The position numbers and the translations under genes are program-made. Of a stretch of 64,000 bases of DNA, positions 24,530 to 52,402 are shown piece after piece (the first letter of the stretch is position 1; the number at the start of each line of letters is the position of its first letter). The notes below the pieces were generated by a model. That model saw nothing but the letters and a program-made list of their open reading frames with translations. It made no database searches and was not told where the DNA came from. This DNA is from Shinisaurus crocodilurus. Taxonomy: Eukaryota; Chordata; Lepidosauria; Squamata; Shinisauridae. The stretch covers positions 285,953,744-286,017,743 of the forward strand of contig CM037878.1 of the NCBI GenBank assembly GCA_021292165.1. The letters run 5' to 3'.

Positions 24530-24664
24530 CAGTGTTCTCCAACCTTGGGTCCCCAGAGGTTTTTGGCCTACAACTCCCAGCATGCCCCAGCCAGCGGAGC
24601 TGGCTGGGGCATGCTGGGAGTTGTAGGCCAAAAACCTCTGGGGACCCAAGGTTGGAGAACATTG
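24530..24664. mobile_element. Family A palindromic hAT MITE
   Basis: 135 bp, loop GGA. Both arms carry the same private change (CAGAGGTTTTT and AAAAACCTCTG). Flanks GTTTAGAG and GTCCAGAG. Confidence 0.95.
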
Positions 24665-25209
24665 GTCCAGAGGCATTCGGGAGCTGCTGCCACTCAGCAT
24701 ACGGCCCCCAAGTGGCGCAGCTAGGTAATTTTAGTCCCCCAGACTTCGTGGTCTTATGGGAGCCTTGTTCAGACAACCACGTGCACGACTGCGCCGTGTC
24801 ATGCTTTACAGCGGCTTCCACAAAGCTTCCGGCCTCGCTCTCACTGAGGTGGCAGGCCCGTGTCTGGAACGTACCGATCAAGGCTCTGGCTGGAGGCGGA
24901 TGGGATATGGGATGCTCTTGCTAAACATGGATGGGATGGGATGCTCTTGCTAGACAGGTCAGGGAGAAGGCTAGGCCTCAACCCTTCCCCCCTGACATGC
25001 TAGCTTTCTATGTGTGGGGACTGCCATCCATCTGGAAGGGCTGCAGAATCCTGGACTGAACAGTGGGCTGGACTGGATTACCTCCCGCCCGGCTCTAAAA
25101 AAAATCCAATGATTCTCTGTTATGTTGTTTTTTTCAGGAAGAGCATTCCAGCATGTGATCCGCTCACTGCAGTCTGAATGGCACAGCCCAGGCACGGGTT
25201 TTTATCATG

Positions 25210-25693
25210 TTGGTCGACGCTGGCTCAAGGTTTGCAAGGGCCCTTGGGCAAGGCACCCTCGATGGGCCCTCTGCCTTCTCACTTGCATTGTCACCAGCTG
25301 CTCTTCCTCTTTCTCCTCCTCCTCTTTCCCATCACTGCTCCCACTCGCTTGCTTGACAGGCAGAGGGCCAGGGAGCAAGCAGGCCGCGGCACTTCCTGCT
25401 CCTCCTCCTCACCAGCGCCGTTGTCTGGGCCAGAGCGAGAGGCAGGTGAACGAGCAGGTGGCAACGGGGAAGAGGAGGAGGAACTCCGGGGGACTCTTTT
25501 GTCAGTGGGCTGCCCCACCATGCCTACCCTCTGGACCAGTGTCCTCCAACCTTGGGTCCCCCGATGTTTTTGGCCTACAACTCCCAGCATGCCCCAGCCA
25601 GCGGAGCTGGCTGGGGCATGCTGGGAGTTGTAGCCAAAAACATCGGGGGACCCAAGGTTGGAGGACACTGCTCTGGACAATCAAGGCCTGACG
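25210..25693 (-). mobile_element. Family F hAT-like repeat, split by family A
   Basis: The reverse copy contains GCAAGGGCCCTTGGGCAAGG, then CACCAGCTGCTCTTCCTC, CCAGAGCGAGAGGCAGGTGA and GGGCTGCCCCACCATGCCTACC. It matches 37919 and 56909. The family A palindrome sits near its 5' end. Confidence 0.75.
25537..25670. mobile_element. Family A palindromic hAT MITE
   Basis: 134 bp, loop GGA. Perfect duplications CTCTGGAC (25529-25536, 25671-25678). Private changes GTCCTCC/GGAGGAC and CCCCCGATG/CATCGGGGG are mirrored in both arms. One base is missing in the right arm (TAGCC). Confidence 0.97.
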
Positions 25694-25699
25694 ATACAA

Positions 25700-26590
25700 A
25701 GAGACGGGAAAAGCGGCCCAGATTTAGATATTCTGCCCTGCACAGAAGACATCAGGATTGAGTTGTGGTTCTTGAACATGCCGGTCTTTGTCGTCTTCTT
25801 TTCTAATTAAAAAGGATCCCTGGATGCGAGCCAAGGACTTCCTGATTAATTGCTTTCTCTCAATAGCAGCTGGCAGTACAGCCGGAGACATGACTTTATC
25901 CAGCCCAGAGGAAATCAATTCCACACCATCACAGGGAATGGGGGTGGGAGAAATATCGGGAGCCCCGGTGCTTTCTCCACCCGTCCAAGGCAGTTCAGAC
26001 TTCGCCTGGCCTCACTGTTGCTTCTCTTCTACGCTTACACACACAGTCATTCCCTCCAGTCCAAATTGGGGGTGCAGGGACGGGACGGTATTCTACAGAG
26101 CAGGGCCACACTGCAATCTGCTGTATCGTTTTGGTGCAAGTTTACCGGAGTGGGCTTCCTCAAAAGGATCCAGGCAAATGTAGTTTGGTGAAGGGCCGGA
26201 GGCGGAGATCACCAGCCCCTCTCACAGAACTACAGTTCCTGGAATCTGCTGCAGGGAATGGATGCAAAGAGGGTTGCCGCCATACCGTTTGGAGGTCTGA
26301 CTCTGAGACGGGAAGGCCAGAGACTGGAAGCTAAAGGGAGGTGTTTGGCAGAGCGCAGGAGGGAGCCTGGTGGGGGCAGAAGATCCCCCCCCCCCAACGG
26401 CCAGGTGCCAACTAGCTGTGTCTGGTGCCTGAGAGGTGGACACCTGTTCAACAAGGGTGGTGGTGGTGGTGTACTTACATGTATTTTCTGCATGCGTGCA
26501 GCTGTGCACACGCACTCCTCTCTAGGCATGCACAGCTGCAAACAGGGCAGTGTGCGGCCTGCATTAAGGAACTGGAATTCTGTATCAAGA
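25700..26590. other. Unclassified stretch
   Basis: Short poly-C (26388-26396) and GGTGGT runs (26457-26471). No gene or repeat recognised. Confidence 0.4.
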
Positions 26591-26601
26591 AAACCCTAAA
26601 C

Positions 26602-26751
26602 CAGTGTTCTCCAACCTTGGGTCCCCAGATGTTTTTGGCCTACAACTCCCAGCATGCCCCAGCCAGCTACGTTTATATAAGCTACGCTGGCTGGGGCATG
26701 CTGGGAGTTGTAGGCCAGAAACATCTGGGGACCCAAGGTTGGAGAACACTG
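26602..26751. mobile_element. Family A palindromic hAT MITE with enlarged loop
   Basis: 150 bp. Perfect duplications CCCTAAAC (26594-26601, 26752-26759). The centre is expanded to CTACGTTTATATAAGCTACG instead of a 3-nt loop. Confidence 0.97.
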
Positions 26752-27084
26752 CCCTAAACCTTTCACCCTTAAAGGTGTCCTAAAAATAATTTTAAATAAA
26801 CAGTAAATATAATTGTGGAGAAACCCTGAGCACACACAGTAAAAAAAATAAGCCAATGTGCTTCTTCCCCCCACCCCCTTCCCACCAGGTTGTAAGCTCC
26901 GTGGGGCAGAGACTTACCCTCTTATACTTCGTAATGCACCACACCAGAATGACCGCACTATATTTTGCTTATTCTGAGTACCGTAAGTTATCGTGCTGCT
27001 GCAAATCGCATGGGGTTGGGCGGGATGTTACCCACACAGGGCCCTGAAGTTCTGCCTCCCAGCTCCACCAGGTATCGCCTTAAG

Positions 27085-27213
27085 GGAGGGTGGGCAACTT
27101 GTGGCCTACAACTCCCATCAGCCCTAGCCAGCTTAGGCAATGGTCGGTGAAGGATCATGGGAGATGCAGGCCAAAACATCTGGAGGGCCACAAGTTGCCC
27201 AACCCCTGCCTAG
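27085..27213. mobile_element. Family D palindrome
   Basis: GGGCAACTTGTGGCCTACAA, CTCCCATCAGCCC, then CAATGGTCGG and a complementary arm ending GGCCACAAGTTGCCC. Confidence 0.8.
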
Positions 27214-27296
27214 GCCCTTCCTCCCAACTTCTTGAAGTTTTACACTCAGTCATTTGGGGTTAAACCAGGGGTCGTGGAACCTCCAGTGTGCATTAG

Positions 27297-27575
27297 GCAG
27301 GCTGTGAGTGTCGTTGCACAAATCAAGGGGTACATACTGCAGGCATGAGAGCCATTGCACACACAATCGAGGTGTACTTTTTTTGGCAGGTACGAGAGCC
27401 ACTGCAAGGAATCAAGGGGTACATATTACGGGCATGAAAGCCGTTGCACAGAACGAAGGGTACTTTTGGCAGGCACGAGAGCCGTTGCACATAGTCGAGG
27501 TGTACATTTGGCAGGCATGAGGGCCGGTTCACACAATCGAGGGGTACCTTTGGCAGGCATGAAAGCCACAGCACT
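27297..27575 (+). repeat. 42-bp tandem minisatellite, about 7 units
   Basis: The unit is roughly GGCAGGCATGAGAGCCGTTG, CACA, then ATCGAGGGGTACATTT. GAGAGCC-type anchors at about 27351, 27398, 27440, 27481, 27523 and 27565 give spacings of 47, 42, 41, 42 and 42. Because 42 is divisible by 3, the frame RGVHLAGMRA repeats in translation. Confidence 0.92.
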
Positions 27576-27579
27576 GGGG

Positions 27580-28405
27580 CTAAACAAATGTCAGATATGT
27601 AGCATCCACAAAATGAGGCATTAAGTGTTGTGTAAACATACACGGCTCCTTAAAAACCATCCAGACTGCCGCACGGATTGGCACAGCGCCAATATAGTCG
27701 CCATGCCACTTGCAAGTCTCTGGTGCAAAGATAAAAATCCTCCATCTTGAAGCACCCATTACAGCCCAAAGGGGTTGGGTGGGCAGGATACAGGGCTGAG
27801 AAGCACTGGCCTAAGAGGAAAAAAGCAGGAGGTGGTACACAAAGAGGTTTGGGGCCAGCCTTTGAGCAAGAAAGCCGAAGGGGCTTTGTTAGTTGTGGGG
27901 TGACAATGTGGATGAAATCTGAAATTCAAGTATCGATCAGAACCAAACCAGCCAACTGAATATCCAGTCTAAGAATTAGATCCCCTCTATCAAGAACTGA
28001 GTATATGGAGTGCTAAAAGCTATTCACTTTCTATCCATTTCCATAGAAATAAGCTGCAGTTTTCATTAGTCTTCCATTTCCAAACCTGAAAAGGGCTTAT
28101 TGTATGACTCTCCACTTCACAAAGAGATAAATAAATGAATTGCACATTTGAAAGAAGGCAGGAGGGAGCAGAAACCATGCAGCTAATCCAAGAGTTCACA
28201 GCATAGAAAGAGAAAGGGGGAAGCACTCCCCACAGCAGAAACAGTTGTGCTTGGAAAACCCTTTGGAAGCTTTCTTATTTATTTATTTAAGTAGTACTTT
28301 GCACAGGGCTTAAGTGAATACAACTGGAAAAATAAAAAATCCTGGCCAGATTCGTTTCCCTGTCTATTAGCTAATTTGACCCCACTGTTTATATTTTTTC
28401 CCTCT
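27580..28405. other. Unclassified AT-richer stretch
   Basis: No exon or family recognised. Confidence 0.4.
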
Positions 28406-28409
28406 ATAC

Positions 28410-28476
28410 CAGTGTTCTCCAACCTTGGGTCCCCAGATGTTTTTGGCCTACAACTCCCAGCATGCCCCAGCCAGCA
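28410..28476. mobile_element. Family A left arm only
   Basis: CAGTGTTCTCC to GCCCCAGCCAGCA, then it joins CR1 sequence. The right arm is absent. Confidence 0.92.
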
Positions 28477-29535
28477 TTAAGTCTCCTGATCATTTGAAAA
28501 CGGCACTGCCAAGCAGAAAACCGTGTTAGAAAGAACTCCGAAGTTGCAAATTATATACATGTAATAAAATGTATAATCCGCAACCATAACGGTTAGCCTG
28601 TTAAATTGGTTGAAAGCATTATTAAAGATAAAATCAGTAAGCATATAGAAGGACAAGCCCTGCTGAGAAAGAATCAACATGGCTTCCACAAAGCTAAGTC
28701 CTGTCTCACTAACCTTTTGAGAGTGTCAAAAAAAACATGTGGACAGGGGTGATCCAGTAGACATTGTTTATTTGGACTTCCAAAAGGCTTGACAAAGTCC
28801 CTCACCAAAGACTCCTGAGTCAACTTAGCAGTCACGGAATAAGAGGAGAGGCCCTCTTATGGCTCAGTAACTGGTTAAAGAAATGAGTGAGTAGGAATAA
28901 ATGGTAAATTCTCCCAATGGAGGGATGTACCGTAAACAGGGGGGTTCCACGAAGAACTTATTGGGACCGATGCTTTTCAACTTGTTCATAAATGGTCTGG
29001 AATTAGAGGTGAACTGTGAGGTGGCCAAGTTTGTTGTTGACACCAAATTATTTAGGGTGGTTAAAACAAAGAGGGATTGCAATGAGTTCCAAAAGGATCT
29101 CTCTCTCCACACGGGAAGAACAATCAGTAAAATAGAAAATGCAGTTCCATGTAAGCAAGTGTAAAGTGATGCACGTTGAGGCAAAAAAACCCCCACCCAA
29201 CTTCATGTATACGTTGCTGGGATCTGAGCTGCCAGTGACTGACCAAGAAAGAGATCTTGGGGTTGTGGTGGACAGCTCGATGACAACGTCAATTCAGTGT
29301 GTGGCAAATTCCATGTTAGGCATAATTAGGAGAGGAATTGAAAATAAAACTGCCAAGATCATACTCCCCTTGTACAAATCGATGGTGCAACCCACACTTT
29401 GAATACTGTGTACAGTTCTGGTCACTGCACTTAAAAAAGGATATTGTCGAGTTGGAAAAAAATGCAGAAAAGGGCAACTAAAAGGATCAAGGGGCTGGAG
29501 CAACTCCCCTGTAAGGAAAGGTTACAATGCTGGCA
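28477..29535 (+). mobile_element. CR1-like LINE (second subfamily), coding part, degraded
   Basis: Translating in shifting frames gives reverse-transcriptase pieces: KAKSCLTNLL (28690), VYLDFQK.FDKVPHQ (motif A, 28765-28810), GPMLFNLFINGLE (motif B end, 28967), VAKFVVDTKLF (motif C with the usual FADD replaced by FVVD, 29020), SKCKVMHVEAKK (29145) and TDQERDLGVVVDSSM (29239). Multiple stops and frameshifts make it a dead copy. It ends near 29535 after KGLEQLPCKERLQ. Confidence 0.9.
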
Positions 29536-29539
29536 CTCC

Positions 29540-29900
29540 ATTCTAGGGTTACCAACTTCCCATCTTCAAAATATTGAGTCATGGGGTGGAGCTGGTTCAG
29601 GGCGCATTGGCGTGGCCAACAAAAAAATCCTACTAATCGTAGCATTTCTAGTTTTCTTAGTGGAAAACTGGCATTTGAGTGTGAAGTACACCGCCACTCC
29701 ACATCCGTCCTATGTGTCTCTTTCAGCACCTTGCACTATGTTTGCGCTAAATCCTTGATGCGCATGCCCCGTTTCTGCTCACCCCGCCCAATGGCTAACA
29801 GCCCAAGAGACGCTACTTCTGAGCACAAAAGGCCCCATCCAGCAACGGCTATTAGCCACAATAGCAAGACGGAACCACCATGGCCAGAAGCAGTAGTACT
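29540..29900. other. Unclassified stretch
   Basis: No family recognised. A TTATTATTA run (29904-29922) starts the next element. Confidence 0.4.
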
Positions 29901-29904
29901 CCCC

Positions 29905-30115
29905 ATTATTATTATTATTATTAACATTTATTTATTGATCTTAGCCCACCCCATATTCCCGCCTGAACAGCCAAGTTTTTAGTGAGCGGCGGAAGCTCAG
30001 CAGAGAGGGGGCATGGCAGAGGTCACTCGGGAGAGAGTTCCACAGTACGGGGGCCGCCACAGAAAAGGCCCTCTTCCTAGTCCCCACCAGTCTAGCTGCT
30101 CTTAGCCAACTCAGA
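29905..30115 (-). mobile_element. L2-like LINE 3' end
   Basis: In element sense it encodes AARLVGTRKRAFSVAAPVLW, then NSLPSDLCHAPSLLSFRRSLKTWLF. It ends with an AATAAATAAATG tail. Confidence 0.88.
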
Positions 30116-30119
30116 TGGC

Positions 30120-30735
30120 GAGTGCAAACAGGGTAAGAATCCAAAGAAGCGCCAGCTGAAGAATAAGAGGGAGGTGTGTCGGCATACTTTGGGGGGACCT
30201 CAAGGCTTGCAGAAGTACATAAAACATATTTTAAAAATGAAAGCTAAGGGGGCAAACCCGCCCGTCCCCTCCAATGAAGACCGTGCACAGAAGGTTGAGT
30301 GTTAATTGGAGAAGAACAATAGAAAACCAGGGGGGAGGGCAGAGAATGGGGCATGCTGCTTGAGTTCCTTAAAACTTATAGTATCTTTCAGGAGGGCACG
30401 GCCGGCAGAGTACAATGTGACACGTGGCTGGCGCACTCCCGTTAGGAGGCTTTCACTTCCAAACAGTTGCTGGGAGACAAATAGGACATGGCTGTTGCCT
30501 TCATGCTCCGCTTAGGAACTTTCTAAGAGCACTTTTGGTGACGGAACGCAGGAACTTTGGCCTGATCGAGGCGGCCACACAAGCGGAAACGCATCACGCC
30601 CCAAGTTATGCGCGCAGAGCTAAGGCCACGCTGGCACAAAGATCCTCGGCTTGCTTCCCCGCTGGAACCGCCTTCCTTCGTTCGCTCACTTTTTACGGGA
30701 TGCCGACACAACCACTGCAAAGTCACTGCATTCTA
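30120..30735. other. Unclassified stretch
   Basis: No family or exon recognised. Confidence 0.4.
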
Positions 30736-30738
30736 GCA

Positions 30739-30823
30739 TAACCTTCCCCAGCTATGCTGGCTGGGGGATGCTGGGAGTTGGGAGTCCAACACATCTGGAA
30801 GGCACCAGGTCGTGGGAAACTGC
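30739..30823. mobile_element. Family D half palindrome
   Basis: CCCCAGCTATGCTGGCTGGGG and a right arm with AGTCCAACACATCTGGAAGG. Confidence 0.65.
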
Positions 30824-30824
30824 A

Positions 30825-31425
30825 CTTGCACCTTCTGTACTATCTTCCTTTCCCTCCCACCAACTTGATTTGTGGCTATTTTGTGTGTGTGTTGTTATAT
30901 AGAACACAATTGCGATAAGAGCATATCCATCCCAGATAGGCGGAAGTGCTTGCCCGGCATTTAAGTGGAACTGTTCCTGTAAAAACTGAAAGCTCCGTTT
31001 TCAGTTTCAGAATCAAGTCAACCCATTTTATTGCTTCTGTGGTCAGCTGACTGGAGGATTAGGATCATTCGTTTTTTCCATCTTCTCTTTCCTTTCCATG
31101 ACAGAAAAAAAGAACCCACCCAGCCCCGCCCCAAAATGGAAACAAACAAGTAATACCTCCCTCTTCCCACGGGGACAAATGCTTTTTAAATAAGGAGGCA
31201 ATTCAGAACTAATCCTCACCCCACCCCACCCCACCCAGGAAACAAAAATGGGCCGAATCTGCAAACAAGAAGCTTTCAATTAACTTTGCAAGGGATCTTT
31301 GCTACTGAAAGTTACCCGGGTGTAGATACAGAAAGATCTTAGCCATGGGGGAAAGGGCATGGCTAGTGCTAACATAGATGCAGGTGAGGGTCTTCGCCAT
31401 GTCCCAACAGTGAAGGAGGCACACA
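30825..31425. other. Unclassified stretch
   Basis: C-rich CCCCACC repeats at 31219-31238. No gene recognised. Confidence 0.4.
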
Positions 31426-31429
31426 ACCA

Positions 31430-31640
31430 GTTAAGATGTACGGAGGAGCCTTTTCTGTGGCTGCACCCAGATTGTGGAACTCTGTATCTCAGAGATCTGT
31501 TTTTTTTGTTTTGTTCAACTTCAGCTGGTTCAAAGAGCTGCTGCCAGAGGTCCAACCCTAACTGTACCACTGGGTTTTGTACCTGCTGCACATCACCCGG
31601 AGCAATGCGTTGCACATTGGAAGGACTGGGTATACATTTT
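31430..31640 (+). mobile_element. L2-like LINE fragment
   Basis: In one frame GAGGAGCCTTTTCTGTGGCTG..CAGATTGTGGAACTCTGT encodes AFSVAAPRLWNSV, the L2 C-terminal block. Confidence 0.6.
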
Positions 31641-31644
31641 CTTA

Positions 31645-32125
31645 AATGGGGGGGTGGGGGGAGAGTTACGTGCCATTTCCAGCTAACTGCAGGAAAGCAA
31701 CGGCGGAGCCAGCGCTGACGGGCTCTAGTGAGGAAGCAACATTTTCATGGATCTCAAAGTATGGGCAGAGCGGTGAACTGCAATGCAAACTGGACTGCAA
31801 TGCAAAGAACACTGTGTTTGCAGAGGTTACTGTCAAACAAAGCAAGATGAGACGTTGTTACGATGAGAGAGAAAGAGAGGCAGGCACGGAATCGCCACAA
31901 TCATTACAATTATCGAATCTGCAAGGGTTTCTCTACCCCTGCCCACCCCAACTTAGGTTGCACTTACCTAACAGCTTTTTTTGTTAAAGACCATGAACAA
32001 CAAGTTTTAAGAATTTGAAATAAAGCATGTTACGGGTAAATGTGAAATCAGGCATCAAGGGAGGCTCGGAACTAAGACTTTAGTTACGATATTTGTATGC
32101 TGGTACCACCACCCCCATAACAAAC
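31645..32125. other. Unclassified stretch
   Basis: Nothing recognised on either strand. Confidence 0.4.
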
Positions 32126-32579: not shown

Positions 32580-32750
32580 CAGGACTGCAGCCGTAACTTT
32601 TTCCTCATTCCTCCCTATTCCTTTTTCCTTGTGTGTCATGTCTTTTTGGATTGTAAGCCTGTGGGCAGGAAACCACCTTCTTTTACTGATTATTTGTAAG
32701 CTGCCCCAGGAGCCTTTTTGGCTGAGGAGTGGGATAATAATACTCTAAAC
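32580..32750 (+). mobile_element. L2-like LINE 3'UTR/tail
   Basis: TTTTTCCTTGTGTGTCATGTC, then GGATTGTAAGCCTGTGGGCAG and GCTGAGGAGTGGGATAATAA. The palindrome at 32751 is inserted in its tail. Confidence 0.75.
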
Positions 32751-32885
32751 CAGTGTTCTCTAACCTTGGGTCCCCAGATGTTTTTGGCCTACAACTCCCA
32801 GCATGCCCCAGCCAGCATAGCTGGCTGGGGCATGCTGGGAGTTGTAGGCCAAAAACATCTGGGGACCCAAGGTTGGAGAACACTG
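32751..32885. mobile_element. Family A palindromic hAT MITE
   Basis: 135 bp, loop ATA. Perfect duplications CTCTAAAC (32743-32750, 32886-32893). Confidence 0.97.
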
Positions 32886-33295
32886 CTCTAAACTAAGTAA
32901 ATAAATAAATACATAGTTTTAAATATTTTAAAAAATAAAAAAGATGGGCATCTGTAACCTTCTACATGCCCAGCCGGCTGCTCCCAGACTATTTTTAAAA
33001 AGAGAGAGAAAACAGTGTGAAAGGATGCTACAGCAACCAGCACAGCAGCAACCTTGATGGGCCCCAGTGTGTCCATTTCAGCATGTACTTAAGAACTGAG
33101 AATGATGACATGAAAAGCGTGTTACTTTAGCTTAATCATGCCCCATTCCTCCACCCCTCACTTGGTGGGTGATCTCACTTGGGTCATATATTCGCCTTCT
33201 GTGGTTTAAGGCATCTTTGACAAATTCTATACATGTCTGCTAAGCCCGAGAAGAAAAGAGCCTTCAGAACAGGATGCTCAACCCAACGACAACAC

Positions 33296-33346
33296 TGGGA
33301 GTTGTAGGCCAAAAACATCTGGGGACCCAAGGTTGGAGAACACTGC
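33296..33346. mobile_element. Family A single arm (right half)
   Basis: CTGGGAGTTGTAGGCC to GGAGAACACTG, at the end of composite U. Confidence 0.92.
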
Positions 33347-33419
33347 TCTAAACTAAGTAAATAAATAAATAAATACATAGTTTTAAATATTTTAAAAATA
33401 TTTAAAGTGACAGCACTTT

Positions 33420-34638: not shown

Positions 34639-34774
34639 CAGTGTTTCTCAACCTTGGGTCCCCAGATGTTTTTGGCCTACAACTCCCAGCATGCCCCAGC
34701 CAGCTATGCTGGCTGGGGCATGCTGGGAGTTGTAGGCCAAAGACATCTGGGGACCCCAAGGTTGAGAAACACTG
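34639..34774. mobile_element. Family A palindromic hAT MITE
   Basis: 136 bp, loop TAT. The variant end CAGTGTTTCTCAACC is mirrored by GGTTGAGAAACACTG. The left flank TCCTAGCT has central TA. The right flank CCAACGCT agrees only in part. Confidence 0.93.
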
Positions 34775-37918: not shown

Positions 37919-38365
37919 CAGGGCCGGCGTCAAGGGTAGGCACGGTCGGGCACCTGCCAAGGGCCCGCCGCACCCCAGTGGGGGCCCACTGAGAAGAGCT
38001 CCCCCTTTTCACCACGGCAGCCTCCTCGTTCCCCGGCCTCTCGCTCGGGTCCAGACAACGGCGGTGGTGAGGAGGTGGAGCGGGAGATGCCACGGCCCGC
38101 TTGCCCCCCTGGCTCTCTGCCTGGCAAGCAAGCGAGTGGGAGGAATGATGGGAAGGAGGAGGAGGAGGAGGAGGAGGAGGAAGAGCAGCTGGTGGCAATG
38201 CGTAGACCAGTGTTCTCCAACCTTGGGTCCCCAGATGTTTTTGGCCTACAACTCCCAGCATGCCCCAGCCAGCTACGCTGGCTGGGGCATGCTGGGAGTT
38301 GTAGGCCAAAAACATCTGGGGACCCAAGGTTGGAGAACACTGCTGTAGACCCACTGAGGGAGGGG
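37919..38365 (+). mobile_element. Family F hAT-like repeat, split by family A
   Basis: CAGGGCCGGCGTCAAGGGTA, then GGGCCCACTGAGAAGAGC, CTCGGGTCCAGACAACGGCG, a (GGA)n run (38156-38182) and CCCACTGAGGGAGG after the palindrome. Homologous to 56909-57287 and to the reverse copy at 25.2 kb. Confidence 0.8.
38208..38342. mobile_element. Family A palindromic hAT MITE
   Basis: 135 bp, loop TAC. Flanks GCGTAGAC and CTGTAGAC (6 of 8). Confidence 0.96.
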
Positions 38366-39202: not shown

Positions 39203-39337
39203 CAGTGTTCTCCAACCTTGGGTCCCCAGGTGTTTTTGGCCTACAACTCCCAGCATGCCCCAGCCAGCGTAGCTGGCTGGGGCATGCTGGGAGTTGTAGG
39301 CCAAAAACATCTGGGGACCCAAGGTTGGAGAACACTG
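39203..39337. mobile_element. Family A palindromic hAT MITE
   Basis: 135 bp, loop GTA. One arm has CAGGTG, the other CATCTG, so this copy is an exception to mirrored changes. The right flank is GGCTAAAT. Confidence 0.95.
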
Positions 39338-42860: not shown

Positions 42861-42995
42861 CAATGGTCTCCAACCTTGGGTCCCCAGGTGTTTTTGGCCT
42901 ACAACTCCCAGCATGCCCCAGCCAGCTATGCTGGCTGGGGCATGCTGGGAGTTGTAGGCCAAAAACACCTGGGGACCCAAGGTTGGAGAACACTG
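42861..42995. mobile_element. Family A palindromic hAT MITE
   Basis: 135 bp, loop TAT. Perfect duplications CAGTAGAG (42853-42860, 42996-43003). CAGGTGTTTTT and AAAAACACCTG are mirrored. The left terminus is decayed to CAATGG. Confidence 0.97.
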
Positions 42996-43854: not shown

Positions 43855-44440
43855 TTTTTGCAAATGCAGAGCACCAGCAGCGCTAGGATACTTGAGAACG
43901 CGCGCCTTCTCCCTTATCAACCTGCCCGGTCACTGCGGTCATCAGATGGGCATGCACCTGCTGGCTCCGCATGGACCTACTGCCTGACTGGAGTCCACCC
44001 AGAGAAGAGCCTTCCATGTGGTGGCTCCCTCCCTGTGGAACTCCCTGCCTCTGGAGGTCAGGCAGGCACCAGCATTGTGTTCTTTCCAGCGCCTCCTGAA
44101 AACATCTTCATTTCAGAAAGACTTCCTTAGTTGACCAGCCACAGTTTCTATTGATATTCTGTTTTAATATAGTGTTTTATACTTTTTGCCTTTTTAATCT
44201 TTTTTTTAAATGGTGTTTTAAATCAGTGTTCTCCAACCTTGGGTCCCCAGGTGTTTTTGGCCTACAACTCCCAGCATGCCCCAGCCAGCTACGCTGGCTG
44301 GGGCATGCTGGGAGTTGTAGGCCAAAAACACCTGGGGACCCAAGGTTGGAGAACACTGATTTTAATTGTTGTACACCACCTTGATGGCTCTTCAGCAGAT
44401 AAGGCGGTATATAAATATTAAAAATAAATAAAATAAAATA
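43855..44440 (+). mobile_element. L2-like LINE 3' part, split by family A
   Basis: CTAGGATACTTGAGAACGCG, then CCCTTATCAACCTGCCCGGT and the AFHVVAPSLWNSLPLEV-type segment (44010-44060). The 3'UTR resumes after 44358 and ends GGCGGTATATAAATATTAAA. Confidence 0.85.
44224..44358. mobile_element. Family A palindromic hAT MITE
   Basis: 135 bp, loop TAC. Flanks TTTTAAAT and ATTTTAAT (6 of 8). CAGGTG/CACCTG are mirrored. Arms are perfectly complementary by eye. Confidence 0.97.
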
Positions 44441-44682: not shown

Positions 44683-44858
44683 TATTTATTATATTTATAC
44701 CCCGCCTTTTTTCCAGCAAGGAACCCAAGGCGGCTTACATAATCCTCCTCCTCCTCTCCATGTTACCCTCACAACAACCCTGTGAGGTAGGTAAGGCTGA
44801 GAGTCAGTGACTGGCCCAAATTCACCCAGTGAGTTTCATGGCCGAGCGGGGACTAGTG
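44683..44858 (-). mobile_element. MIR-type CORE SINE, left arm of a SINE palindrome
   Basis: Reverse copy from TTTATTTATTATATTTATAC to CATGGCCGAGCGGGGACTA. It stops at the B box and joins a forward copy head-on. Confidence 0.92.
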
Positions 44859-45085
44859 TGGCGTAGTGGTGAGAGTGTTGGACTGGTACTCGGGAGATCC
44901 GGGTTCTAGTCCCCGTTCGGCCATGAAACTCACTGGGTGACTTTGGGCCAGTCACTGACTCTCAGCCTAACCTACCTCACAGGGTTGTTGTGAGGGTAAC
45001 ATGGAGAGGAGGAGGATTATGTAAGCCGCCTTGGGTTCCTTGCAGGAAAAAAGGCGGGGTATAAATATAGTAAATAAATAAATAT
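44858..45085 (+). mobile_element. MIR-type CORE SINE, right arm
   Basis: GTGTGGCGTAGTGGTGAGAG head, B box GGGTTCTAGTCCCC, CORE and tail GGGGTATAAATATAGTAAAT. Confidence 0.95.
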
Positions 45086-45144
45086 ACCTTCCCTCCTTAA
45101 GAGATAACAGGGCAGGCATCATATTAGAAACCACACTTTATGAC

Positions 45145-45264: not shown

Positions 45265-45427
45265 GCATCGGGGAAGGGCTGTCTTATGAACTGGATGCCA
45301 AGGCCTGTTCCCACCAACTATGGGAACTCTTTGCGATGGCTCAGTGGCAAGGGAATGCACTCTGTACCTGCTCAGAGGCACGTTCATCTGTTCTTACTTC
45401 ATGTCTTCCAGGGCTGAATCCCGGCAA

Positions 45428-45555
45428 TTTATTTATTTATTATATTTATACCCCACCTTTTTTTCGGCAAGGAACCCAAGGCGGCTTACATAATCCTCTT
45501 CCTCCTCCTCTCCATTTTATCCTCACAACAACCCTGTGAGGCAGGTTAGGCAATG
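45428..45555 (-). mobile_element. MIR-type CORE SINE, truncated
   Basis: TTTATTTATTATATTTATAC through CTCACAACAACCCTGTGAG to GGTTAGGCAATGAG. The head is missing. Confidence 0.88.
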
Positions 45556-45559
45556 AGAA

Positions 45560-46250
45560 TAAATGCTAAATACAAAACCTGTCTCAACTGGGGGGAGGGG
45601 GGGGAATTACTGGATTATGGAAATGGTTTCGTCTTAAGAGCATCCAGTCTGCATTCAATGCAGACCAGAAAGAGGGAAGAGGGAAAGCAGCTGGAGAATG
45701 ACAAAGGATAAAGTAGAACAGATAAAGTAAAAGAATGTAGACAAGCAAGAAAAAGCCAGCTTGTATAGGAAACAAGATCTGCGGGATACTAAAGCCATGC
45801 CAAGTGACAGGAAATAGATTAATAATAATAAAAAAATCATTTTTAGAGGAAAACATGGAGAAAGCTCAAAGACCCGGGAGCAGGGAGAGAAAGGAAACAA
45901 CGGACTGATAATAAATCAAGATGGTTTGGAATAGAGGAACTAAGTAGCTGTTAAGTAGAAAGACACATTAAATGCGAGGGGAGAAGGCCTCCACATACGC
46001 TTGAAAGGTATTTGCCTTTACAATTTCTTCCAATGTCCAGCAACTGAACCTCAGAATTAAAGAACAGGTCCTGGAGTTCAGTTTTCACACACACCCACCC
46101 CCACTGAAAACAATCCCTATTCAGGGCAAAAAAGTGGACACCTTTATCACAAGGACTAGAAACTTGCAGACACACATTACTGCAGAGAACAGCAGGGAGG
46201 CTGTTCCGTTGGCTTAATCCATGGGAGGCATGCAACAGAGAGGATAAGAA
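45560..46250. other. Unclassified stretch
   Basis: A G-run at 45591-45604. AT-rich in the middle. No family recognised. Confidence 0.4.
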
Positions 46251-46256
46251 CAAAGG

Positions 46257-46350
46257 AAAATAAGAAGAGCCCTGCTGGATCAGGCCAAGGGTCCATCTAG
46301 TCCAGCATTCTGTTTGCACAGAGGCCAACCAGCTGCCCACGGGATCACAT
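46257..46350 (-). mobile_element. CR1-like LINE 3' fragment
   Basis: AAGAAGAGCCCTGCTGGATC, then CCATCTAGTCCAGCATTCTG and CCAACCAGCTGCCCACGGGA. Confidence 0.88.
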
Positions 46351-46431
46351 CTGCAGGGTCTGGATTCCTGTTGCCAGCGCATGTTGTTTGCTTGGTCATG
46401 CAAAAAGTGATCCACTCTCTCACGGGTAGGC

Positions 46432-46545
46432 AACCCAGGGTCTCTTCGGATGCTATGCACTATGACTCCCAGCAGCCCCAGGCAGCACGCCAACGGTCAG
46501 GCATTATGGGAGTTGTAGTCCAAAACACCCAGAAGGAACTGGGCT
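46432..46545. mobile_element. Family D palindrome, decayed
   Basis: GGCAACCCAGGGTCTCTTCG, CTCCCAGCAGCCCC, CCAACGGTCAGG and TTATGGGAGTTGTAGTCC. Confidence 0.75.
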
Positions 46546-46549
46546 GTTG

Positions 46550-47005
46550 CCTTACCCCTGTTCTAAGTTTTTATATACCTTGGCACTTGGTAGGGGATGA
46601 CGGGGTCACAATCGCCTATGATGGCTGGTGGCTACCGCAGTTTGGTTCACACCCCTGAAAAAGTACGCACCCCCACCCACCTCAATTTTTTTGCAAATGT
46701 ACAGAAGATGCCCAGCATAATCTGCAGTTTAGAGCTTGGACAGAATACCGGGAATCTGAAGCAAGCTGCAGCCCGGGTGCCATTTGCCTCTGTGTGTGTG
46801 CTTGCTACCCACCTGCCCATTTAAAAAATAAACCCAACATTTTTACATAATCCAGGGCAGCACAGAGCATCTAACCGCCCCAGGGCTGAAAGAAAGCTAA
46901 AAAGGAACAGAGAAGGGATCCCTACGCAAGCAGCATCAACAACAGAACGCCAATCCCAATCGCCACCCCACTCACCCCGCTCTTCCCCCTCTTAAGGCTC
47001 AGCAC
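46550..47005. other. Unclassified stretch
   Basis: Nothing recognised. Confidence 0.4.
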
Positions 47006-47009
47006 ACCA

Positions 47010-47112
47010 CACAGTCTCAGGCTGCGAGCTGATGCACAACTTACCGGGGAGCAAGCCCCATGGAGCACAATGGGACTTACTTCCAAGTAAACACGCAGAG
47101 CACTGCGCTGCC
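47010..47112. mobile_element. Family C MITE, decayed
   Basis: CTTACCGGGGAGCAAGCCCC, then CAATGGGACTTACTTCCAAG and TAAACACGCAGAGCACTGCGC. Confidence 0.7.
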
Positions 47113-47269
47113 TGCCAACGGCGGGCCCCCCCAAACAGAGAAAGGCAAAACACAGCCTGGTCACAACAAGACGGAAAAAGGAAGAGCGCGTCGCGTGTAT
47201 GTGTGTGAGTGTGCGTGCGCGCTCGCGCGCGCGGTCAGCGGGAAGCCCCTCCGCCGCCTCTGCTTGCAC

Positions 47270-47404
47270 GCAGCCTTCTCCACGTTGGCCCTCCAGGTGT
47301 GTCGGGTCTACAACGCCCATCATCTCCCGCCAGGCTGGGGAGGGGGTGGGGGTTATGGGAGTTGCAGCCCAACACATCTGCAAGGCGCCCGGTTGGAGAA
47401 GGCT
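47270..47404. mobile_element. Family D palindrome within the CpG island
   Basis: CAGCCTTCTCCACGTTGGCC start and CGGTTGGAGAAGGCTG end form inverted termini. The core is CTACAACGCCCATCATCTCC and its complement. Confidence 0.85.
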
Positions 47405-47756
47405 GAAAAATCCTCCGCCCCCGCTTCGAAATAACCGAAAATGAAAGCCAAACAGCAGCCCTCCGCCGCATTATTTTGGGGTTGTGTTTTTTTTTTGTGT
47501 GTGTTCAAATCGCTTCCTCTACGGCGCGTACACACATGCGCCGCGTTTTGCGTGCGGGAGATGCGTGTATGCCGGAGGGCAGGGCTGCAAAGGGCAGCCT
47601 TTTGAGCTACCTCTCCAGCTGCAGGGCATCCTCCGGGGCTAACACCCACTCCCACCCCCTTGGCTCGGGAGCTCTGCAAAGCTCTCCATAGGAACGAGAG
47701 AGAGAGAGAAAGAAACCGGATTCACGCCGATCTGCCTGGCCAGTTCCGCATCTCAC

Positions 47757-47905
47757 CTTCCCTGCAAGGCACCCGGCGCCGCTGGCGGAGACTTGCTCGC
47801 TTTTTCTGTCTTCAGCACTTTGCTTGCGCGGGGGCGGGGCTTCGCAAGGTAATCGGGGCGGGGCTTAGGCCAAGGGGTGGGGCGAGAGCTGGCGCAGGCG
47901 CCTAA
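47757..47905 (-). other. Candidate untranslated exon 1 of CAPN5 (upstream limit uncertain)
   Basis: On the minus strand a splice donor reads GGGAAG|GTGAGA, with the last exonic base at 47757. It lies just downstream (in minus orientation) of a GC-box cluster. CAPN5 in other vertebrates is generally described with a noncoding first exon far upstream of the ATG exon, so this is the natural partner of the acceptor at 23921. The implied intron is about 23.8 kb. The transcription start is a guess placed at the GC boxes. It could instead be an unrelated minus-strand transcript, or the promoter could serve a plus-strand gene. Confidence 0.45.
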
Positions 47906-47998
47906 GGCGCAGTGGCGGCCGCGGGAGTATCGTCATTCATAGAATCCTTTCATTCATTCATTCGCTCTCCGGGGAGCGGCAGGTGGAAGGCGTGATGA

Positions 47999-48105
47999 AA
48001 GTTTCTGCCTGCAATCCCCCGACGCCCGCTTACCTGGGAGTAAGCCCCGCTGAACTCTATAGGGTTCACTTCTGAGGAGACACGTCTGGGGGATTGGGCC
48101 CCGAG
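47999..48105. mobile_element. Family C MITE
   Basis: CTGCAATCCCCCGACGCCC, TTACCTGGGAGTAAGCCCC, TTCACTTCTGAGGAGACACG and GGGGGATTGGGCC. Confidence 0.75.
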
Positions 48106-48119
48106 CGAATCCCGTAACC

Positions 48120-48285
48120 CGATCTTACTATATTTATTTTATTTATTCACAGCATTTTTACCCAGCTCTTCAGCCAAAAAAAAAAAAAGCTCCAAAGAGT
48201 GGCTTCCAGAGATTAATATTTAGACAGTCCCTGCCCTCAGGCTTACAATCTAAAAGACATGACACAAGAGGAAAAGGGGTTGGGA
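48120..48285 (-). mobile_element. L2-like 3' tail
   Basis: TTTATTTTATTTATTCACAG, TTTTTACCCAGCTCTTCAGC, CCTGCCCTCAGGCTTACAAT. Confidence 0.65.
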
Positions 48286-48443
48286 GGGAGGAGGAGGAAG
48301 AAAGCAAAACTCAGACACCACTCCCCAGGCAGCACAGGGAGGGTGTGTTGGACTTTGTCTGTGTGCTAAAGACTATCAAAGGCCGGGAAGGCCGCAGTGA
48401 TGTGTTCATCTCATATCCGATATCAATCTATATTTATATCCTA

Positions 48444-48650
48444 ATAGGAACATCGGAAAGATGCCTTATCCCGAGTATGACGCTTGGTCTATCTGGTCCA
48501 GTATTGTTGACGCTGACCGGCAGCAACAGCTCTCCGGGGGTTTCAGGCAGGAGTTTTTCTTGCCCCCACCTGGAGATGCCCGGGATTGAACAGGGGACCT
48601 TTTGTATGCACAATAGGGGCTCTACCACTGACCTAAGGCCTCTTCTCTTA
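48444..48650 (-). mobile_element. tRNA-headed SINE, reverse
   Basis: GGAACATCGGAAAGATGCCT body, CCTGGAGATGCCCGGGATTG and GGGGCTCTACCACTGACCTA give the complement of a tRNA-like head (A box TAGGTCAGTGGTAGAGC, B box GTTCAATCCC). Confidence 0.75.
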
Positions 48651-48671
48651 TTATCATCATAATAAGGTAAC

Positions 48672-48810
48672 AAGGATCCAATCCGGTGCATGTTTAGACA
48701 GAAAAAAAGTCCTACAACTCCCAGCATGCCCCAGCCAGCATAGCTGGCTGGGGCATGCTGGGAGTTGTAGGACTTTTTTTTCTGTCTAAACATGCACCGG
48801 ATTGTGCCTT
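48672..48810. mobile_element. Family B palindrome
   Basis: Ends AAGGATCCAATCCGGTGCATG and CATGCACCGGATTGTGCCTT. The family A-type core has loop ATA. The private change CCGGTGCA/TGCACCGG is mirrored in both arms. No clear TTA duplication. Confidence 0.88.
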
Positions 48811-48814
48811 CAGG

Positions 48815-49130
48815 GACTTATTGCCTCCTTCGTGGGACAATGGCCTATTTGCCTGACTCCAAAAGTTCAGTTGGAAATAAGAAAAGCTGATCAAAATTGC
48901 ATCGGGCCCATAATTGCATCGGGCCCGTATTGAGCCATGTTCCTTAGCTTGACACAAAGTGCAGCTTGACGGCCCATCACAGAGAAGTCACCCCTCTAAG
49001 AAACATCACTTTGTACTGCATAATCAAAGAGCAGATTTCTAATATCGGGGCCTGCTCCAGTTGGACTCCCCACCCCCTGGGGAGATGAGAGGGGAAGCAG
49101 CGCCATTCCACCAACCCAGCTGGAAGTCTA
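48815..49130. other. Unclassified stretch
   Basis: A direct repeat AATTGCATCGGGCCC lies at 48895 and 48913. Otherwise nothing recognised. Confidence 0.4.
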
Positions 49131-49134
49131 CTTC

Positions 49135-49232
49135 AGGGACCGCCTTGTTTTACTGATTGGTTGTAAGCTGTTCTGGGAGCCTTTTTTTCGACTGAGGAGC
49201 AGGATAAAAATACTTTAAATAAATAAATAACA
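49135..49232 (+). mobile_element. L2-like 3' tail
   Basis: GGACCGCCTTGTTTTACTGA, TTGTAAGCTGTTCTGGGAGC, ACTTTAAATAAATAAATAAC. Confidence 0.75.
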
Positions 49233-49234
49233 CA

Positions 49235-50285
49235 ATTTTTAAGTCAACCAAATCCTCTAAGAATCCATTAAAACCCCATTGATCAAGAGAACCAAGCTGG
49301 TTTCAGTTTGTTTCCACTCAAGGAGTATCGAAAGATATCAATAAATTGATCCTGAAAAAGTCAAATTTCTTTCACCTGCTCCATATAACATCAGCATAAT
49401 ATCAGTCATCCACAATTTCCCTGGGGGGTATATCTCTTCAAATCTGGGCAATGTGCACGGGTTGTTGAAATCTTAAATGTTTTAGGATCTAAGAGTACAA
49501 TGTTGGCTGGACCACCAAACCACTTAAACTGGAATGTTTCTACATCATCAATTTTGGCAGTACCAAACCTGCTTATGTTGCACTATATAGCATCTCTCAC
49601 GCGGTTTGCAGATTGCTTTGTTTGTGCGGGCAAAACGAGAGGCATAAAGATGTACCTGGACCCCTCAAAGACCAAGACAGCCTGGCGATATGGTGGTTTA
49701 AAGAAGGATCAAGCTGCAAACCAGTTAAGGTAGATAAGTATGATAGGCTTTGCAAGACATGTACGATTAGGATTTGCAAACAGTACCGGAACTGAGTAGA
49801 ATTCCAAAACACAGGCAGGAATACCAAAACACATATCTTGGACAACTGAAATTCTTCTCATCTTTTCAATCATTGGTACCTACATTCAAATCTAATGGTT
49901 AGTTTTGGGGTGCTTGTCTGTTTTTGTTCCGGTCAATTGGCTGGGATGTGTTTTATTTGTGTGCCAAGCTTCCTATGTATTGCTCTTATTTAGGTTAGGC
50001 AAGATAAGGATTGCAAGATGCCCAGCTGCAAATCTAATTCAGGTAAGGGAGGGAGGCACTGCAAGAGTTCTTCTGCAAGTCAATTCATGGTGCAGATGAG
50101 AGCAAACTCAATTCTGAGCAGACGCGCTTACAATCGCAAGGCACGAACTTGCAGAGAGAGCAGGAGATGGCTTGGACAGCTGCAAACCAGGAAATTCTCT
50201 GTTCAAATCTTGGGGCTGTGAACTGACAAGCTGGCCTAAGGTAAGCCCCTACTCTCTCAGTCACACACACACGATCTACTTAATA
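49235..50285. other. Unclassified, AT-rich, 1 kb
   Basis: Short cysteine-containing frames overlap at 49500-49795 (CFVCAG in one frame, LCKTCTIRIC in another). They are faintly like the zinc-rich tail of some transposases, but they lie in different frames and I do not assign a family. Confidence 0.35.
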
Positions 50286-50291
50286 AATTTA

Positions 50292-50425
50292 GGACACAAT
50301 CTTATGCAAGTTTGAATAGAAAAAAGGCCTACAACTCCCAGCATGCCCCAGCCAGCTATGCTGGCTGGGGCATGCTGGGAGTTGTAGGCCTTTCTTTCTG
50401 TCTAAACTTGCATAGGATTGTTCCT
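50292..50425. mobile_element. Family B palindrome
   Basis: TTA on both sides (50289-50291, 50426-50428). Ends GGACACAATCTTATGCAAG and CTTGCATAGGATTGTTCC. Core as in family A, with loop TAT. Confidence 0.88.
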
Positions 50426-50500
50426 TTAATTCCATTTCTATGCCACCCATTAGCTGAAGCTCTCTGGGCAGTTAATAAGGATAACAACACAGCCCGTCTT
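50426..50500 (-). mobile_element. L2-like 3' tail fragment
   Basis: CATTTCTATGCCACCCATTAG, then CTGAAGCTCTCTGGGCAGTT. Confidence 0.6.
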
Positions 50501-50592
50501 AAGTGAAGCGCTTTGAACACTCCCAAAGTGCTATATGAATGCTTATCTGTACATATCGCTACGAAAAACCAAACCTACTGGACTTTCAGACT

Positions 50593-51413
50593 GCAGTCAG
50601 TCAGTCAGGCGATCACTCGTGACCGAGTAAGATTGTCTTCCAGGATAAATTTTTTTTTTACAAAAAGGAGATTTTAAAAGGAGGAAAATTCTAAAGAAAA
50701 TTGTGTAGACTCTAGCGATGGGTCCGTAAGTGACTGTGGAGGCCAATTCTAGATCCACACAGCTTCCCACAGTGAGGACACAGGTTACCGGATGGAAGAT
50801 GGTCCTGTAAAGGATTCATTTGACGTGTTTTTCGCTTAGCACGTTTCTCCCTTTCACCTTGCACTCGGGCTTCTTCAAAGTCCATGGAACCTTTGTGAAA
50901 GGCCAACCTCCAGTTAGATCGTTCATGGGCCAGAGCTTCCCAGTTTTTGATGTTTATGTTGCATTTTTTTAGATTAGCCTTAAGAACATCTTTAAACCTC
51001 TTATATTGACCACCGATATTCCGCTTTCCATCCTTGAGTTGGGAATAAAGTAACTGCTTTGGGGGACGGCAGTCAGGCATTCGAACAACATGACCGGTCC
51101 ACTGAAGTTGGCGTTGAAGGATCATTTTTTCAACGCTAGTAGTCTTGGCTTCTTCCAGTACCAGGGCCGGTGCTACCATTAGGCCAACTAGGCGGCTGCC
51201 TAGGGCGCAGGGCTAAAGGGGGCGCCAGGAGCATAGGGCTGGAGGGAGGGAGGGCTCAAGTGGGAAGGGGGGGCGCCAGATATCTGATCTTGCCTAGGGC
51301 ACCAAACTGCCTTGCACCGGCCCTGTCCAGTACACTGACATTTGTTCGCCTATCTTCCCAAGTAATTCGCAGGATTTTCCGGAGGCAACGTTGATGAAAT
51401 CTTTCAAGGAGTT
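50593..51413 (-). mobile_element. LINE-X copy 4, split by a small hAT
   Basis: The minus-strand frame 50712-51179 encodes the complete C-terminal part, from EEAKTTSVEKMILQRQLQ to the finger CPHCGKLC and HSHLRTHR, without a stop. Upstream coding resumes beyond the 164-bp insertion (51334-51413: the segment encoding RFHQRCLRKILRITW-like sequence). The 3' tail at 50593-50612 is (CAGT)n rather than (TGA)n in plus-strand reading. Confidence 0.9.
51162..51325. mobile_element. Small hAT MITE inserted in LINE-X
   Basis: Ends CAGGGCCGGTGC and GCACCGGCCCTG. Perfect duplications TCCAGTAC (51154-51161, 51326-51333). Internal TAGGCGGCTGCCTAGGGCGC and GCCTAGGGCACC are partly complementary. Confidence 0.95.
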
Positions 51414-51644
51414 GGAGGTGAATACTCCCTTGGATACCCCAGGCAGTCTCAGGTTAATATAAATCCTGTGCAGCGCAGTATCTTTCTTTTGTTTGCAGTA
51501 CACCAGGAAGTGGTTTCTTTCTTGCATTAATTCGAAGGACCATTAGCTTAACAATTCCTGAAGCAGACCGGCACAGCAGGAAGTAAGTTTATTGTGTGCG
51601 GGGACAGGTATTGAAGAATGCTCCTGCAACACGCATACATGTTT

Positions 51645-52213
51645 TATTTATTTATTATATTTTTAAATCGCCCATCTGGCCGGTCACCCGGCCACCCTGG
51701 GGGGCGATGTACAGCAGAATAAAATACAATAAAACACCATTAAAACACAATTAAAACAGACACAATTAAAACAATATCAAAGGGTTTTTTTTAAAAAAAA
51801 TTCTAACCCACCCCATATTTCCGCCTGAAAAAACATGTTTTTAAAGCACGGTGGAAGCTCATCAAGGAGGGGGCATGGCGAAGGTCACTGGGGAGGGAGT
51901 TCCATAACTTGGGGGCCGCCACAGAGAAGGCCCTCTTCCTAGTCCCCACCAGCCTGGCTGCTCTGGCTGATGGGATAAGGAGAAGGCCGTCCGTGGCAGA
52001 CCTTGTTGAGCGGCCTACTTGATGTTGCTGGAGGCGCTCCTTGAGATAGACTGGACCGGAGCCGTGTAGGGTTTTAAAGGTCAAAAACAACACCTTGAAT
52101 TCGGCCCGGCAAGCAACTGGTAGCCAGTGTAGCTCCTTGAGCACTGGAGTGATGCGATCTCGCTGGCGGCTGCCTTTAACCAGGCGAGTCGCCGCGTTCT
52201 GTACCAGCTATTA
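51645..52213 (-). mobile_element. L2-like LINE 3' part with ORF remnant
   Basis: The minus frame 51803-52144 (113 codons) reads LKELHWLPVACRAEFKVLFL and RAFSVAAPKLWNSLPSDLRH. It is nearly the same sequence as the copy at 14.0 kb. Confidence 0.92.
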
Positions 52214-52271
52214 AGCACGCTAAAGACTTTCCTGGCATAGCAGGTGAAGGGAGAAAGCCTTCACAGTACAG

Positions 52272-52402
52272 CAGTGTTTCTCAACCTTGGGTCCCCAGAT
52301 GTTTTTGGCCTACAACTCCCAGCATGCCCCAGCCAGCTATGCTGGGGCATGCTGGGAGTTGTAGGCCAAAAACATCTGGGGACCCAAGGTTGAGAAACAC
52401 TG
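52272..52402. mobile_element. Family A palindromic hAT MITE
   Basis: 131 bp, the right side of the core shortened by 4. Perfect duplications CAGTACAG (52264-52271, 52403-52410). Variant ends CAGTGTTTCTCAACC/GGTTGAGAAACACTG are mirrored, as at 34.6 kb. Confidence 0.97.

Follow-up and report, generated by a model that had tools for sequence, protein, structure and literature searches.

The window analysed here, a 64,000-nt stretch of Shinisaurus crocodilurus DNA (C3:285953744-286017743; contig CM037878.1 of assembly GCA_021292165.1), holds copies of a short palindromic element, here called family A. Each copy is about 135 bp long and is made of two arms of about 66 nt, which begin CAGTG, and a 3-nt centre, commonly TAC/GTA or TAT/ATA; the ends read CAGTG...CACTG. 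Arms were located with nhmmer and were found to form 13 two-arm family A copies, accompanied by lone arms, older relatives and members of a second family, family B. An earlier reading of the letters (hereafter the original prediction) had noticed that changes between copies recur in both arms, and had ascribed this to arm-to-arm correction in source elements or during transposition. In what follows, changes are numbered along the arm consensus, which contains no CpG, and are called mirrored when found in both arms of a copy and one-sided when found in one. The two-arm copies, with the half arms attached to two of them, are:

1824..1958, + strand: family A palindrome, beyond the interval of the original prediction (24530..52402); one-sided C1T.
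24066..24117, + strand: half arm of family A, also with T29G; outer end of a composite unit paralogous, in inverted orientation, to 32743-33351.
24530..24664, + strand: family A palindrome; T29G (CAGAGG/CCTCTG) mirrored; G3A one-sided, in the right arm; centre GGA.
25537..25670, + strand: family A palindrome; two mirrored changes, T7C and A26C, and del38C in one arm; 8-bp duplication CTCTGGAC.
26602..26751, + strand: family A palindrome; one-sided T34C; centre 15 nt over the usual length; duplication CCCTAAAC.
32751..32885, + strand: family A palindrome, part of the paralogous unit; both arms with consensus T29; one-sided C11T; 8-bp duplication CTCTAAAC.
33294..33345, - strand: half arm of the paralogous unit; consensus T29.
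34639..34774, + strand: family A palindrome; TTCTCC changed to TTTCTC in both arms; one-sided ins17G and T32C.
38208..38342, + strand: family A palindrome; consensus arms; full single-strand hairpin, -92.5 kcal/mol.
39203..39337, + strand: family A palindrome; A28G one-sided, in the left arm.
42861..42995, + strand: family A palindrome; A28G (CAGGTG/CACCTG) mirrored; one-sided G3A and T6G; duplication CAGTAGAG.
44224..44358, + strand: family A palindrome; A28G (CAGGTG/CACCTG) mirrored.
52272..52402, + strand: family A palindrome; TTTCTC mirrored; 4 nt shorter in its central part; duplication CAGTACAG.
55033..55138, + strand: short (106-bp) family A palindrome; centre GCATGC; one-sided A44G.
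58527..58632, + strand: short family A palindrome; identical arms; duplication CTTTAGTG.

Every mirrored variant named in the original prediction (at 24.5, 25.5, 34.6, 52.3, 42.9, 44.2 and 48.7 kb) is present in both arms. With the arm consensus as reference, 7 mirrored and 11 one-sided events were scored in the 13 copies; the unmirrored changes that the prediction had called few do exist, but are the commoner class. Chance levels were set by random re-pairing of left and right arms. The observed sharing was matched in 2 of 200,000 such re-pairings, and arms differ by 0.85 events within a copy as against 1.83 between copies. Identical changes private to one copy were seen three times (T29G at 24.6 kb; T7C and A26C at 25.6 kb), where 0.01 to 0.07 are expected by chance. 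Independent mutation of both arms at hot sites is already contradicted by this figure. Some sites may indeed be hot, as G3A, A44G and GGG-run insertions (positions 18-20) all recur one-sided; chance nevertheless reaches P = 0.17 only if a twentyfold hot-site factor is granted and every event is counted, and we regard such an origin as next to impossible.

The comparison was widened to 104 two-arm copies, the 13 of the window and the rest from the first 3 Mb of C1, from which 5 copies of an older family were removed to leave 99. The sample is biased: exact matching of an arm brought in many of the copies, and several copies duplicate each other. The arm shuffles, moreover, leave shared ancestry in place. 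Mirrored events numbered 40, against a shuffle mean of 5.0 and a maximum of 14 in 20,000 re-pairings. Excluding the TTTCTC subfamily left 22 (1.2 expected, maximum 7), and excluding TTTCTC, C14G and A13G together left 14 (0.56 expected, maximum 5). Mirrored events occurred in 37 of the 99 copies, or 19 when TTTCTC is not counted; among substitution-type variants, 13 of 55 were mirrored in at least one copy, as were 4 of the 33 confined to a single copy. Mean arm distance was 0.97 within copies and 1.68 between them, so that arms of one copy are more alike than arms of different copies. The original prediction was right that independent mutation would not produce such a pattern.

Some variants also mark subfamilies, a point that the prediction had wanted tested. 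TTTCTC, found in both arms of 18 of its 21 carriers, behaves as an inherited subfamily mark, much of its mirroring reflecting one old event followed by copying; not every mirrored variant can thus be counted as a separate product of correction. C14G is similarly present in both arms of 4 of 5 carriers. A13G is mirrored in 4 copies and one-sided in 5, and perhaps its one-arm state transposes as well. Inheritance could in principle account for everything, if each mirrored variant arose once in a source, its carriers were descendants and resident copies were never corrected. TTTCTC and C14G conform to this explanation; comparisons between loci that descend from one insertion, given below, do not, and as a complete account we find it rather improbable.

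Mirroring was followed through the genome (2.19 Gb searched) for T29G (CAGAGG) only, with no control variant, using the first 100 of 685 places and counts made by eye. The 685 exact T29G arms represent 0.85% of exact T29 and T29G arms, the consensus 32-mer being found 80,014 times. Thirty of the first 100 arms listed form 15 opposed identical pairs; if arms were independent, such a partner would be expected for about 1 arm in 118. The frequency of T29G and this degree of pairing again speak against hot sites. Of the 70 unpaired arms, 45 were fetched: 18 proved to have T29G in both arms along with some other difference, 17 had it in one arm, and in 10 the other arm was mostly or wholly lost. 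In this tally the arm of L087 is truncated (L numbers denote loci) and the partner arm of L098 has T29A; an incomplete partner at L116 was counted as one-arm, a fragment at L118 as lost, and L089, which aligned differently, has CAGAGG in both arms. Some of the loci share flanks (L090/L091, L095/L096, L086/L087 and L122/L123). Mirrored T29G recurs at more than 30 fetched loci, in company with mirrored A13C (L071), C14G (L083), C10G (L086), A12G (L104), A12C (L089) or T4G/T6C (L069, L073). Since T29G is mirrored beside different mirrored variants in different copies, mirroring is a repeated process and not a single old accident.

Stronger evidence came from loci that share both flanks and hence descend from one insertion. 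Sixteen such pairs were compared, 11 at first (including one of an older family) and 5 later; L086/L087 and L095/L096 were kept out, one arm being truncated or lost. Judging from positions, about 0.76 Mb separates the members of 12 of the 16 pairs on C1. These may be duplications or unmerged haplotypes, and the inference is the same either way. A block at about 2.15-2.7 Mb of C1 seems to be repeated about 0.76 Mb further on with a divergence of a few percent, as a segmental duplication or an unmerged haplotype.

The most informative pair is L069/L089, whose members lie in a shared 1.9-kb repeat (96.7% identity, 28 mismatches). L089 carries the transversion A12C in both arms, which is absent from L069; the variant 62G is found in one arm of L069 and in both arms of L089; and the centre is flipped, reading GTA in L089 and TAC in L069. 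In a second pair, L122/L123, T29G is mirrored in L122 and one-sided in L123, and both loci have the one-sided marks G19A and A43G. As these marks flank position 29 and were retained, a tract copied between them would measure less than 24 nt, provided that L123 is not a revertant. Altogether, the centre is inverted in 3 of the 16 pairs (L069/L089, L017/L157 and L053/L155), and differences within the 15 young pairs amount to 9 of 1,798 sites for the arms and 37 of 2,236 for the flanks (P = 0.0005). These loci go against inheritance alone: one insertion shows a both-arm transversion and a flipped centre, and two candidates have a variant of one arm in one member and of both arms in the other.

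An assembly or amplification artefact, in which reads of one arm are used to polish the other or synthesis snaps back during library preparation, must be weighed at this point. Palindromes are difficult to sequence, and the repeated C1 block could represent an unmerged haplotype instead of a duplication. However, one-sided variants survive in many copies and are common to both members of pairs, and mirrored T29G by itself recurs at too many fetched loci; an artefact is therefore very unlikely.

Exchange between copies deserves closer attention. By conversion, or by template switching from another copy, a locus could import a mirrored haplotype or an opposite centre. Several pairs have a single flank in common, shared as far as the edge of the element (L011/L023, L014/L015, L017/L021, L045/L049 and the window loci at 24 and 32 kb), as expected of exchange or mobilisation, and further one-flank matches link L005/L030, L007/L032, L012/L066, L047/L065 and L048/L148. 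Moreover, L052 and L156 differ by the common variant C14G in one arm, and in L090/L091 an arm with A13C and T29G faces an arm with neither. Exchange with other copies thus seems to occur too, and other copies could serve as donors throughout, with only the L122/L123 tract speaking against it: there a donor would have to supply fewer than 24 nt, and to be one of the 0.85% of arms with T29G instead of the opposite arm. A donor already mirrored, besides, needs the same explanation as the recipient. We consider exchange unlikely to be the source of the mirroring, though a serious contender. Two of the one-flank pairs were set aside as evidence for correction: L011/L023, where ins17G is present in one arm versus both and the G run may slip, and L014/L015, which has a single shared flank.

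The window loci at 24 and 32 kb belong to this discussion. The palindromes at 24.6 and 32.8 kb are parts of one composite unit present in two inverted copies (24066-24664 and 32751-33345; 95.9% identity over 613 nt), each with a full palindrome and a half arm that ends outwardly in the same way, separated by 408 nt of captured DNA. T29G is found in 3 of 3 arms of the unit at locus 24 and in 0 of 3 at locus 32, a difference that also goes against inheritance alone. Because the centres differ and the outer 8-mers of locus 24 mismatch, this evidence is ranked below that of L069/L089. A small composite (palindrome, CTCTAGAG, 21 nt and a half arm) lies at L011:1610-1835 and L023:5928-6164 with different outer flanks; the outer 8-mers at L011, CTTGAGAG and CTTTAGAG, are one base apart, and this composite may have moved as a unit. 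Elsewhere, C1:2304546-2304813 (L016:8591-8828) has four half arms in tandem with a 79-bp period, and its flank recurs at L142.

A further type of rearrangement was found elsewhere in the window, where an arm, its target duplication and the adjoining flank are repeated in inverted orientation (58.6-59.2 kb):

58577..58703, + strand: right arm, target duplication and flank; inverted repeat at 59075-59201 (127 nt, 100%).
59075..59201, - strand: inverted copy of 58577-58703; duplication of snap-back type.

L023 has a similar inverted copy of arm and flank (128 nt, 97.7%). These are 2 of 62 copies tested, a count that leaves out the older copy at 13.6 kb, where an inverted match reaches 87%, and the two neighbouring copies in L028, which match each other in inverted orientation. 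Such structures raise the question of repeated rebirth, in which a lone arm is duplicated by snap-back to give a new palindrome whose arms are identical from the start, with no later correction. Lone arms are frequent (the 10 of 45 fetched T29G arms above), snap-back copies with flank exist, and centres vary. Against this, rebirth in place leaves inverted flanks, counted at those two copies only; in 30 of the 40 mirrored copies the direct 8-mers are identical or differ at a single base, and L122 seems to keep older one-sided marks beside its mirrored one. Rebirth as the general origin of mirroring is accordingly improbable.

We therefore favour, with a probability of about three in four, the reading that template switching within a hairpin corrects the arms and flips the centre of resident family A copies. 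The marks of such switching that were found are arm copying (in L069/L089 and, less certainly, L122/L123), the excess of mirrored events, spacer inversion in place in 3 of 16 pairs, and the inverted copies of arm and flank. A single strand of family A would fold into one hairpin: in predictions for six copies, five of family A and one of family B, all six formed a hairpin along nearly their full length, with energies of -67 to -92.5 kcal/mol versus shuffle means of -15 to -23. DNA synthesis in the element would occasionally switch template from arm to arm, on the same or the opposite strand, and the switch points would set the outcome. With some, a short tract of one arm would be replaced by the complement of the other, giving mirrored variants; with others the centre would be inverted; and where synthesis leaves the element, an inverted copy of arm and flank would result. 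Switching would take place in copies already inserted, and corrected copies could later transpose, so that a mirrored state may found a subfamily. Arm-to-arm correction, as originally predicted, is borne out by the excess of mirroring and by L069/L089; its proposed place is not, as the duplicated loci point to resident copies.

Hairpin mismatch repair or recombination between arms would copy arms too, and recombination would also invert the centre. We infer that the route is template switching at replication rather than either of these or exchange between copies, because the possible tract of less than 24 nt and the snap-back copies are short-range marks; the direction of a change, where the consensus alone tells it, and the frequency of correction in sources are likewise inferred.

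A number of observations weigh against this reading. Locus 24 has its centre changed to GGA and unmatched outer 8-mers, and exchange with another copy there is possible. The L122/L123 difference could be explained by reversion in L123, and calling an inversion in L053/L155 requires CpG changes as well. The deficit of arm differences relative to flanks is partly a matter of ascertainment, since many members were found by exact arm match; flanks may also hold CpG, of which the arm consensus has none. The element is unchanged in 8 of the 16 pairs, and only one-sided differences are seen in L090/L091, L006/L031, L052/L156 and the older-family palindrome of L013/L026 (of the first 11 pairs, 6 were unchanged and 3 one-sided only, as inheritance alone would have it). 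In L013/L026 one of two changes leaves the arms matching in one member, which CpG mutation accounts for. Lastly, about 15 one-sided variants are unchanged in both members of a pair, compared with 2 apparently corrected, at position 29 in L122/L123 and position 62 in L069/L089; the former count was made by reading and excludes the centre-deleted part of L014/L068. As most one-sided marks persist in both members, arm correction is slow relative to the age of the pairs.

Target-site duplications provide a rough clock that adds to these reservations. Flanking 8-mers are identical in 54 of the 99 young copies and have at most one mismatch in 70. Mismatches in the duplications (16 of 560) exceed differences between arms (36 of 2,450) only twofold (P = 0.03), and the test was weaker in an earlier sample (P = 0.07) and in the window alone (P = 0.12); at one mismatch or fewer the clock is only suggestive. 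A version admitting up to three mismatches (P = 1e-13) was dropped, as unrelated 8-mers of the preferred target look alike. Identical 8-mers bound 23 of the 40 mirrored copies (TTTCTC not collapsed), and 16 of those 23 have no one-sided change; many copies were therefore probably inserted already mirrored, as inheritance from a source would require.

A bolder proposal is that family A is a self-mending hairpin transposon, in which up to about 40,000 resident palindromes exchange arm sequence and flip their centres at perhaps tenfold the single-base mutation rate, so that biased mutation, rather than selection acting on the ends, keeps the palindrome. The tenfold estimate is based on 3 inversions in 16 pairs versus 1.65% flank divergence in 15 of them, and we hold the proposal tentatively, with rather more doubt than conviction. 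If it is true, each copy is a natural recorder of germline hairpin template switching.

As to the nature of the element, the 80,014 exact arm 32-mers correspond to up to about 40,000 two-arm copies, a figure that would be lower if lone arms are frequent. Family A fits a palindromic, hAT-like miniature inverted-repeat transposable element (MITE), as its 8-bp duplications are so often identical and many have TA at their centre, for example CTCTAGAG. MITEs of the hAT type have short terminal inverted repeats starting CAG-G and no coding capacity; the ends of family A agree with this, and about 135 bp is below the size of a transposase, judged by length with no gene search. No Rfam family matched the window at gathering scores and no transfer RNA was found in it; the core sequence had no exact match in viral or prokaryote contigs, as expected for animal DNA. 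Family B has other ends (AATCCTATGCATGTTTAGAC...) and occurs at 35.1, 42.4, 48.7 and 50.3 kb. Its copy at 48.7 kb, which contains the mirrored pair CCGGTGCA/TGCACCGG, and the older relative of family A are:

13608..13743, + strand: older relative of family A; more diverged arms; duplication CTCTAACC.
48670..48813, + strand: family B palindrome; other ends, same core; CCGGTG in both arms, other B arms having mostly CCTATG.

The palindromic core of family B is the same as that of family A, as if it had moved between transposon families. The core, CTACAACTCCCAGCATGC at arm positions 39-56 of family A, resembles the ZNF143/Staf binding motif, a likeness on which a literature search gave no helpful paper; each copy may carry two such sites. 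The window also has a 111-nt inverted repeat of another repeat family (44746-44856 and 44906-45016, 97% complementary), a possible snap-back product, and a 41-nt repeat in five copies, four in tandem (27321-27575).

The arms of Y-chromosome palindromes are reportedly kept alike by gene conversion (Rozen 2003); those arms are much longer and homologous recombination is involved. The likeness to family A lies in arms of one palindrome being kept alike, here with 66-nt arms and one possible tract shorter than 24 nt. Made1 is palindromic in form and derived from mariner. It resembles family A as a short palindromic MITE, while the 8-bp duplications of family A point to hAT; Made1 is described as a human MITE (PMC1784062).

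Hairpin template switching is itself already known from yeast and from RNA genes, and the cited papers deal with it in laboratory assays, genes, or RNA genes under selection. Literature searches, which covered open-licence full texts only, brought up no multi-copy transposon with a record of the process in its resident copies. One genome offers tens of thousands of hairpin copies with a known consensus, a rough age clock in the target duplications, and duplicated loci. Existing assemblies and trios could allow the rate of the process, the length of its tracts, any preference for one strand and the inversion of centres to be measured in an animal germline. The process also offers a reason for the ends of palindromic MITEs to stay alike without selection.

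Three other known systems are close to the one proposed. Quasi-palindrome mutations in E. coli and yeast extend identity between imperfect inverted arms (PMC7202029, PMC3820800); imperfect arms are made more alike as in family A, but that work consists of laboratory assays, whereas family A is a natural set of copies. Template switching is also reported by Monttinen and Loytynoja (2022, PMC8794818) to create and maintain RNA hairpins and to explain compensatory stem changes. In both cases one copying event would change both sides of a stem; in RNA genes selection on structure acts as well, whereas the family A copies of the window had no Rfam match. In yeast, Abraham and Hazkani-Covo (2021, PMC8604942) report homogenised arms and an inverted spacer where template switching has acted on short inverted repeats, and their earlier work on proteobacteria is cited there for inverted-repeat regions being more conserved than their surroundings. 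Family A shows the same two marks. The yeast repeats are short and lie in coding genes of strains; here the arms, about 66 nt long, are those of a transposon of which one animal genome has tens of thousands of copies, and there are inverted copies that include flanking DNA.

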